Below are positions 4,946 through 7,287 of a stretch of 64,000 nt of DNA, one piece after another; position 1 is the stretch's first letter, and each line of letters opens with the position of its first letter. The notes below the pieces were generated by a model. The model was not told where the DNA came from. It saw only the letters and a list, made by a program, of their open reading frames with translations, and searched no databases. A program made the position numbers and the translations under genes. The stretch comes from Planctomycetaceae bacterium (lineage in GTDB: Bacteria > Planctomycetota > Planctomycetia > Planctomycetales > Planctomycetaceae). Where the stretch lies: the NCBI GenBank assembly GCA_018699955.1, contig JABISG010000154.1, forward strand, positions 1-64,000, written 5' to 3'.

Positions 4946-5127
4946 ACGACGGCTGCTGGCGCACGGCTGAATCCGCGTCCTGTTGTTTACCACGTTATCC
5001 TATTTTGCTAACCTTCGCCCAACCGTTTTGGCCATCGACAAATGAAACGAGATGGCCACATCCCGCGAATGGCTGATGATGGTTATCCGCGTGATCGATG
5101 CCAGCTGCAGCAGCAGGACGCCCTTCG

Positions 5128-7287
5128 ATGAAACAGCTCGAAAATGCAGTTCGCGATGGTGCCTGTTTGCTGAATCTCAAGGCCGACGACCTGCCGGCTA
5201 TTTTTCAGAGCGCAATCTCACAGCTCGTTGGTCAGGGAAAACTGCCGGCCGAGCACCGCGATGACATCACCGCCGCATTGCTCGAACGCGAAGCCAGTAT
5301 GTCGACGGCCATCGGCCATGCGGTAGCCGTTCCCCATGCCTATCTCGATGTCTTAGCCGCCCCCGTTGTTGTTTTCATCCAGTTGGCCCGCCCGCTGAAC
5401 ATGGGCGCTCCCGACGGTATACCAACCCGCTTTCTCATCATTTTGTTGGGGCCGACAGGTGCGGCGGTCGAACATCTCGACGCGCTGACCAACATCGCCC
5501 GGCTGATGTCGGACGACGAGTTCCGCTACGAAGCGGGCGAGGTGCGTACTCAGCAGGAATTGCTCGAAGCGTTCAAGCGATTTCATATTCGCACCGCGCC
5601 GATTCCCGAGATCGACGCGGAAGAAACAATTCCGGAATCGCTGCGTTACTCCGGGCGGCTGTTCGGCGGGCTCATCAACGACCTGCGCCGGCGGCTGCCG
5701 AATTACGCCAGCGACTTTCGCGACGGACTGCACCCCAAGGTCCTCGCATCGACGCTGTTCCTGTTCTTCGCCTGTCTGGCACCGGCGGTCACGTTCGGCG
5801 GCATTCTGGGAGTTGCATCCGATGGCTATATCGGCGCTGTCGAAATGATCGCCGCCTCCGCGATGTGCGGCGTCTTGTACGCACTATTTTCCGGACAGCC
5901 GCTGGTTATTCTGGGTGGCACCGGGCCGCTGTTGATTTTCACCATCATTCTGTATCAGCTTTGCCGCGATTACCTTGGATTGGGTGATCTGTTCCTCGAA
6001 GTGCGCGTGTGGGTGGGGCTGTGGACGGCGTTGTTTCTCGTCATCCTAGCGGTCACCGATGCCAGTTGTCTGATGCGGTATTTCACCCGGTTCACTGACG
6101 AAATCTTTGCTGCGCTCATCTCGCTCATCTTCATCTTTGAAGCCGGCAGGGGGATTCTCCATATCTTCAGCGATCTGGAGATCCACAAGCACCACGACAC
6201 GGCGTTGTTGTCGCTGCTATTGGCGATGGGAACGTTGTACGTCGCGACAGCGCTTTCGCGGTTTCGCCGCAGCCGTTTTCTCAATCACTGGTTTCGGGAA
6301 TTCCTGACCGATTTTGGCCCCACGATCGCAATCGTAATCATGTCGTTGTTCGCGTTGTCTCCCATGTTGGAAAGTGTCTCGCTACCCGCGCTGCCGGCAC
6401 CATCTTCCTTCCAACCGACGTATTCGCCGCCGGTCGAGGGAGCAGTCGCCGCGACGACACCGGAGAATGAGGCCACTGGAGAGAATGCGGCGACCGGCGA
6501 AACTGATGTTGTCAAGCAGAGCAATCCACCCCGCGCGTGGTTCGTCAACCCGTTGCGCGCCCCAATGTGGGTTTGGTTCGCTTCGGCCGGTCCGGCATTG
6601 CTGCTAACCGTATTGGTGTTTGTCGATCAGAACATTACCGCGCGGCTCGTCAACAGCCCCGATCACAAATTGCAAAAGGGGGAAGCATATCACCTCGATC
6701 TCGCCGTTGGCGGTGTGTTAGTCGGGTTGACTCCATTCTTTGGATTTCCGTGGCTTATTGCGGCGACCGTGCGTTCGGTCAATCACGTTCGCAGTCTGGC
6801 GACGGTTGAGGAAGTGGTGACGCCCGGCGGCGAAACGCGCGAGCGAATAATTCACGTACGTGAAAACCGTGTGAGTGCGCTGGCTATTCATGTGCTCATG
6901 GGATTGTCGTTGTTTTTGTTGTCCTACCTCAAGATGATTCCCATGGCCGTGCTGTATGGCTTGTTTCTGTTTATGGGAATCGTCTCGATGGCGGGCAACC
7001 AGTTCTTCGAGCGACTCAGCCTGTGGCTGATGGATTCCAAACTCTATCCGGCGACGCACTACATTCGCCGCGTTCCACTTTCGACAATTCACCGGTTCAC
7101 GCTGCTGCAACTTGCCTGTCTGGTGGTGTTGTGGATTGTGAAAGGCAGCCCGCGGCTGGGAATTTTGTTCCCGCTGTTCATCGTGCTGCTGGTCCCCGTG
7201 CGGATGTTGGCCAACCGGTTCTTCTCACCCAAGAACCTCAGCATTCTCGATGCAGAAGAGGAACCGGGCGAGGAAGAATGGGGCTGA
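5128..7287 (+). CDS. PTS EIIA domain fused to an SLC4/band 3-type anion (bicarbonate) transporter
   Basis: 719 residues. Residues 1-~145 form a PTS EIIA type-2 (mannitol/fructose-like) domain with the phospho-accepting His in AVAVPHA (~70). From ~180 on the protein reads as an SLC4 anion exchanger, with GGLINDLRRRLPNY, SPAITFGG-like APAVTFGGILG, QPLVILGGTGPLL, RVWVGLW, DEIFAALISLIFIFEA, FPWLIAATVRSVNH and IPMAVLYGLFLFMGI. About 12-14 hydrophobic segments are visible. A low-complexity Ala/Thr/Glu-rich loop at ~430-470 replaces the exofacial loop of animal proteins. Likely role: sodium- or anion-coupled bicarbonate transport, possibly gated by phosphorylation of the EIIA domain. The ATG at 5128 begins the EIIA fold; 5098 is an alternative. 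No carbonic anhydrase or PTS gene is adjacent. Confidence 0.88.
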   Translation: MKQLENAVRDGACLLNLKADDLPAIFQSAISQLVGQGKLPAEHRDDITAALLEREASMSTAIGHAVAVPHAYLDVLAAPVVVFIQLARPLNMGAPDGIPTRFLIILLGPTGAAVEHLDALTNIARLMSDDEFRYEAGEVRTQQELLEAFKRFHIRTAPIPEIDAEETIPESLRYSGRLFGGLINDLRRRLPNYASDFRDGLHPKVLASTLFLFFACLAPAVTFGGILGVASDGYIGAVEMIAASAMCGVLYALFSGQPLVILGGTGPLLIFTIILYQLCRDYLGLGDLFLEVRVWVGLWTALFLVILAVTDASCLMRYFTRFTDEIFAALISLIFIFEAGRGILHIFSDLEIHKHHDTALLSLLLAMGTLYVATALSRFRRSRFLNHWFREFLTDFGPTIAIVIMSLFALSPMLESVSLPALPAPSSFQPTYSPPVEGAVAATTPENEATGENAATGETDVVKQSNPPRAWFVNPLRAPMWVWFASAGPALLLTVLVFVDQNITARLVNSPDHKLQKGEAYHLDLAVGGVLVGLTPFFGFPWLIAATVRSVNHVRSLATVEEVVTPGGETRERIIHVRENRVSALAIHVLMGLSLFLLSYLKMIPMAVLYGLFLFMGIVSMAGNQFFERLSLWLMDSKLYPATHYIRRVPLSTIHRFTLLQLACLVVLWIVKGSPRLGILFPLFIVLLVPVRMLANRFFSPKNLSILDAEEEPGEEEWG

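Follow-up and report, generated by a model that had tools for sequence, protein, structure and literature searches.

A 2015 review described the SLC4-like proteins outside animals, in bacteria, fungi and plants, as lacking the N-terminal cytoplasmic domain, and found no separate gene homologous to that domain in any available genome (PMC4664831). Among bacterial EIIA proteins, EIIA-Ntr (PtsN) regulates a potassium transporter by binding (PMC4664831), and LacS of streptococci and lactobacilli is a non-PTS transporter whose fused EIIA is phosphorylated by HPr; according to a 2023 review, no other bacterial transporter is known to be phosphorylated directly (PMC10710835). The window analyzed here, a stretch of 64,000 nucleotides from a Planctomycetaceae bacterium (GCA_018699955.1, contig JABISG010000154.1), carries a gene in which a type-2 EIIA domain is fused to an SLC4 membrane domain.

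The fusion protein resembles the animal SLC4 proteins (AE1/band 3, AE2, AE3, NBCe1, NBCn1, NDCBE) in its two domains, their order, the membrane fold and a cytoplasmic domain that has the EIIA fold and shows specific kinship in sequence. It differs in that the bacterial EIIA keeps its Arg/His/His site, lacks the long insert and N-terminal extension of the animal domains, and is joined to a substrate site that combines an Asp, as in the NBCs, with an Arg, as in the AEs. With EIIA-Ntr and other type-2 EIIA the protein shares fold, Pfam family, phospho-His motif and second His, but it is fused to a transporter and falls in a group separate from PtsN and from antiporter-, SulP- and HTH-fused EIIA. 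LacS, in contrast, has an EIIA-Glc-like domain, belongs to the GPH transporter family and carries lactose. Plant and fungal BOR1 have the SLC4 membrane fold but no cytoplasmic EIIA-like domain, and plant BOR1 has Gln at the AE1 Arg730 position. Nitrococcus mobilis (by published description) and other plain bacterial SLC4-like proteins have the bacterial SLC4 membrane domain, but the N-terminal domain is absent there (PMC4664831), and the plain forms found in this work belong mostly to a clade with decayed EIIA forms. No description of an EIIA-SLC4 fusion was found in a literature search whose scope left subscription papers aside (e.g. Parker and Boron 2013), where an earlier mention is possible; the pairing is in principle visible to any Pfam scan of these proteins. 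The published view of bacterial SLC4s as proteins without an N-terminal domain (PMC4664831) needs revision.

The fusion gene and its predicted structure

The open reading frame at positions 5,098 to 7,287 (+ strand) is uninterrupted and encodes 729 aa from its first ATG. Homologues begin at the Met encoded by the ATG at 5,128, the start used in an earlier sequence-only reading of this DNA, which gives a gene at 5,128 to 7,287 (+) and a product of 719 aa; the ATG at 5,098 would add 10 aa. The N-terminal part (residues 11-168, 5,128 to 5,601, +) matched PTS_EIIA_2 (PF00359) at 8.6e-20, with 71.6 bits against a curated cut-off of 27, and the same residues matched Band_3_cyto (PF07565) at 4e-20, with 73.1 bits against a curated cut-off of 34.3. 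The remainder forms a complete SLC4 membrane domain (residues 186-720, 5,653 to 7,257, +), which matched HCO3_cotransp (PF00955) at 6.7e-180 (600 bits, cut-off 27). The sequence-only reading had proposed a type-2 EIIA fused to a full SLC4 membrane domain, and the profile searches that it had called for confirmed this, with PTS_EIIA_2 and HCO3_cotransp both above their curated cut-offs. The protein scored 585.6 against the NCBIfam model TIGR00834 ('anion exchange protein'), just below the cut-off of 599.45, and is therefore not filed as an animal-type AE.

Comparison with the PDB placed NBCn1, SLC4A10 and NDCBE (NBCn1, 1e-128) first among the solved relatives of the whole protein, ahead of AE2 (1.6e-117) and AE1 (4e-109), followed by plant BOR1 (3e-60) and PtsN (6e-15). 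The closest named relatives were proteins of Planctomycetota. Membrane-domain blocks that had been matched to AE1 by eye, such as APAVTFGG, do align with animal SLC4s. Residues 447-474 (6,436 to 6,519, +) form a disordered loop (pLDDT <50) that is absent from the aligned homologues, all other rows of alignment A1 having a gap there.

The full-length AlphaFold2 model, made with 30 homologues, had a pLDDT of 85.7. Foldseek matched both of its domains to AE2 (8gv9; 1.1e-43, 759 columns), and further two-domain matches were an AE3/AE2 chimera, AE1 from red-cell complexes and BTR1. The model aligned with AE2 and AE1 over 750-800 columns, and the comparison with AE1 that had been suggested earlier thus extended over both domains. 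Against AE2 (8jni) the TM score was 0.93 by target at 3.4 Å, and the SLC4 fold was also recovered in matches to AE1 and BOR1; the membrane domain matched those of AE2, AE3, AE1 and BOR1. The EIIA domain modeled alone reached a pLDDT of 95.8, and its best fold match was PtsN (3e-11), followed by the cytoplasmic domains of AE and NDCBE proteins and then by mannitol EIIA. An N-terminal domain that fails to match EIIA was ruled out by the PTS_EIIA_2 match (8.6e-20) and the PtsN fold match.

The EIIA active site and kinship with animal SLC4 proteins

The active site of the EIIA domain is complete. Arg64 (5,287 to 5,289, +) is Arg in nearly all intact copies and Lys in AE1 and NBCe1. The expected phospho-accepting His80 (5,335 to 5,337, +; His70 counted from the second ATG) lies in VPHAY, and its Pro-His is kept in intact bacterial SLC4-EIIA domains; the claim that the phospho-accepting His of AVAVPHA is intact held, with AVAVPHA at residues 75-81. 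The second His, His126 (5,473 to 5,475, +), is invariant in alignment A4 and is Tyr in AE1 and NBCe1. Alignment found the full Arg, Pro-His and His set in 74 N-terminal domains; in a few more, the Arg alone differs or part of the domain is missing. In AE1 and NBCe1, the Arg position is Lys, the second-His position is Tyr and the segment with the first His is missing. The animal state is a lost EIIA site with the insert present, whereas the fusion has an intact site and no insert.

Decay of the EIIA site was also observed in bacteria. Several Myxococcota proteins have a site in intermediate or full decay (AVVHD, ICVK, VLRV), and other Myxococcota SLC4s have no EIIA domain at all. The decayed and domain-less forms together make up one clade in the tree of membrane domains (TMDs) (17 rows, support 99/97), with intact forms around it. 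Decay of the EIIA site therefore occurred in bacteria as well as in animals. To judge from these Myxococcota sequences, the EIIA domain is apparently not essential for transport. In a Polyangiaceae genome, an SLC4 gene without EIIA adjoins a SulP gene with a C-terminal EIIA (L097, 1,659 to 5,496), as if the EIIA sat on the neighboring transporter instead. At another locus, in a metagenome-assembled genome, the EIIA-SLC4 gene is split into two pieces by an in-frame stop beside a carbonic anhydrase gene (L068, 5,449 to 7,524); the stop may be an assembly error or a sign of decay.

To relate these domains to those of animals, profiles were compared in both directions. A profile of intact bacterial SLC4-EIIA domains matched PtsN at 1.4e-28, then NBCe1 (2.4e-20), AE2 (1.1e-19) and AE1 (1.2e-16), and mannitol EIIA came far behind the animal cytoplasmic domains (3e-7). 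Scored with an HMM built from four human cytoplasmic domains, intact bacterial SLC4-EIIA domains reached 34-90 bits, whereas no other sampled EIIA exceeded 20.6 bits and E. coli PtsN stood at 14.9. Because the animal-domain HMM separates SLC4-EIIA (34-90) from other EIIA (20.6 or less), both domains look to be shared by descent between the bacterial fusion and animal SLC4. The proposal that the two-domain architecture mirrors that of animal band 3 was upheld in this fuller sense, with the same domains, in the same order, both apparently shared by descent.

Phylogenetic trees were consistent with this kinship. The rows included E. coli PtsN and mannitol EIIA, on which alone no conclusion rests; sequences of human AE1, NBCe1 and SLC4A11 and of plant BOR1 were verified against PDB chains, and the other eukaryotic rows came from PDB alignments. 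In the EIIA tree, PtsN and the antiporter-, SulP- and HTH-fused EIIA stood apart from a group of bacterial SLC4-EIIA and animal domains (92/94, just short of the mark for strong support). Within that group the AE/NBC domains fell inside the intact bacterial domains, and bacterial monophyly was not rejected (p = 0.24). The joint tree of EIIA and TMD likewise placed the animals inside the bacteria with moderate support, again without rejection of bacterial monophyly (p = 0.25), and the TMD-only tree was compatible with animals either nested among the bacterial fusions or outside them. Animals were represented by human paralogues only, deep nodes were weak, and SLC4A11, on a long branch, was placed unreliably in the TMD and EIIA trees. 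A single fused ancestor of the bacterial and animal proteins nevertheless appears well supported. The fusion may preserve the ancestral arrangement, as the sequence-only reading suggested; the trees are compatible with an origin of the animal genes from bacteria or with an older common fusion. The bacterial fusions supply the missing homologue of the SLC4 cytoplasmic domain by sequence, beyond fold alone; this homologue is found already joined to the transporter, with its active site intact, and has bacterial relatives that show animal-like decay.

Distribution, neighboring genes and the transported anion

In a scan that covered 84,980 species genomes, 186 related stretches were confirmed and 80 loci obtained, almost all of them planctomycete and almost all EIIA-fused. 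The family comprises about 80 loci, mostly from Planctomycetota with some from Myxococcota. SLC4 scored above the cut-off in 13 of 294 sampled genomes of the phylum of the window and in 22 of 284 of the phylum of the Myxococcota seed. The only genome above the cut-off was the seed genome itself in Gammaproteobacteria (1 of 369) and in Verrucomicrobiota (1 of 289), and a search of viral contigs found no relative. The source assembly of the window (7.1 Mb, 173 contigs) contains two more SLC4 genes on another contig (C165), one a complete EIIA-SLC4 gene and one cut by the contig end. A universal stress protein (Usp) gene lies between these two (L008, 9,348 to 10,175, -), and such a gene also adjoins SLC4 at three other loci (L038, L078, L082).

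Residues of the anion site were assigned by alignment. We take Glu681 and Arg730 of AE1 to name the anion-site positions. Asp510 (6,625 to 6,627, +) lies at the position of AE1 Glu681 and NBCe1 Asp754, which is mostly Asp in bacteria and sometimes Ser, Thr, Asn, Cys or Glu. Arg559 (6,772 to 6,774, +) lies at the AE1 Arg730 position and is Arg in all 30 rows of alignment A3 and in all EIIA-bearing rows. Arg at this position is common to the AEs; it is Ile or Leu in NBCe1 and NBCn1 and Gln in BOR1, and SLC4A11 has no Arg there. Both the acidic TM8 residue and the AE1-type Arg are therefore present at the anion site of the fusion.

The genes around the relatives point to bicarbonate as the probable substrate. 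A beta-carbonic anhydrase (CA) gene lies near 11 of the 80 loci, against 0.42 expected from the CA density of the window's genome (Poisson 1e-12, a guide only since the loci are related), and SulP genes lie near 9 of the 80. Gene runs such as CA-SulP-EIIA-SLC4-Usp occur at two loci (L038, L078). In the window's genome, contig C27 carries CA and SulP genes together with the beginning of an EIIA-SLC4 gene; comparison of the ends of C27 and C165 found no overlap between them, and from L038 and L078 we infer the order CA-SulP-EIIA-SLC4-Usp-EIIA-SLC4. No CA/SulP cluster surrounds the copy in the window. Elsewhere in this genome, a SulP transporter (L177, G000:C84, 7,036 to 9,084, -) carries a PII domain (PF00543, 1e-12) at its C terminus. 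Its neighbors are a pair of beta-CA-like genes and the gene of a DabB-like Proton_antipo_M protein, which makes this a second inorganic-carbon cluster, possibly under PII control.

A proposed phosphorylation switch and its alternatives

The window's genome contains the gene run hpf-EIIA-HPr-EI, in which EIIA, HPr and EI were confirmed by Pfam and HPr has its site. No match to PF02378, the EIIC family searched, was found in this genome. The hpf-EIIA-HPr-EI run together with the absence of a PTS_EIIC match indicates that the PTS looks regulatory, of PTS-Ntr type, and the fusion has no PF02378 partner in the genome of the kind that a PTS sugar permease (EIIABC) would have. The explanation that best fits the sequence comparisons, and one that we consider somewhat probable, is that the protein is an SLC4-family bicarbonate transporter controlled through its EIIA by a PTS-Ntr-type phosphorelay. 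Phosphate would pass from PEP through EI and HPr to His80, and the phosphorylation state would alter contacts between the EIIA and membrane domains, so that movement of bicarbonate (or bicarbonate/chloride) would follow PEP/pyruvate and the carbon-nitrogen state of the cell. LacS, a non-PTS transporter under the control of HPr through its fused domain, provides a precedent for the proposed switch. Animal band 3-type proteins would descend from the same fused ancestor; in them the domain would have lost both histidines and persisted as a scaffold that binds proteins but has no catalytic role. The fusion points to the source of the cytoplasmic half of band 3 and suggests that bicarbonate transport in bacteria is switched by phosphorylation; where the domain came from, and whether it first served as such a switch, become testable directly in bacteria. 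A bolder version is tentative: animal SLC4 would derive wholly from a bacterial EIIA-SLC4 gene, the band 3 hub would be a dead PTS phosphoprotein, and in planctomycetes PTS phosphorylation would act directly on bicarbonate transport, which would make the fusion the second bacterial transporter, LacS being the first, to be regulated by phosphorylation of the transporter itself.

Several other explanations were weighed. The EIIA could serve as a fold or dimerization scaffold only, with a conserved His whose phosphorylation plays no role in transport. Bacterial relatives with a decayed or absent EIIA, in which transport is likely possible without the domain, are in keeping with this, as is the large retention of transport by AE1 and AE2 after domain removal (PMC4664831). 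We nevertheless judge it unlikely: intact copies that have diverged very far still share the Arg, the Pro-His and the second His, and the genome encodes a complete EI/HPr relay, which together imply selection on catalysis. It is rather less probable that the transported anion is borate, chloride or hydroxide and not bicarbonate. SLC4A11 and BOR1 show that substrates change within the fold, and the Glu681 equivalent varies in bacteria, but the CA and SulP neighbors argue for bicarbonate, as does Arg559, which both BOR1 and SLC4A11 lack.

Shared ancestry of the fusion also has its alternatives. Several other transporters and regulators of planctomycetes also carry a fused EIIA, and the 92/94 support for the animal and bacterial group is just under the strong mark, both of which would allow two separate fusions, one in bacteria and the other on the lineage leading to animals. 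The wide separation of intact bacterial SLC4-EIIA from all other sampled EIIA by the animal-domain HMM, the identical order and partner, and the close relationship of the TMDs make this very improbable. Acquisition of the gene by bacteria from animals would agree with the high TMD similarity to animal SLC4s, but we find it barely credible: the bacterial proteins keep the catalytic residues and the segment with the His, both missing in animals, the active site would have to be regained, and the copies are widely diverse. A recent transfer in this direction, which the sequence-only reading had named as grounds for rejecting its proposal, is contradicted by the catalytic residues that bacteria keep and by their spread over several phyla.

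Other EIIA fusions were noted during the search. In the window's genome, an HTH_17 domain is fused to a type-2 EIIA (L118, G000:C44, 1,198 to 1,959, +) in what is likely a PTS-linked regulator, and similar EIIA proteins occur in relatives. Two further loci (L078, 8,485 to 9,921, and L209, reverse strand) encode a protein of about 475 aa in which an EIIA-like domain at the N terminus precedes a conserved C-terminal part of unknown function.
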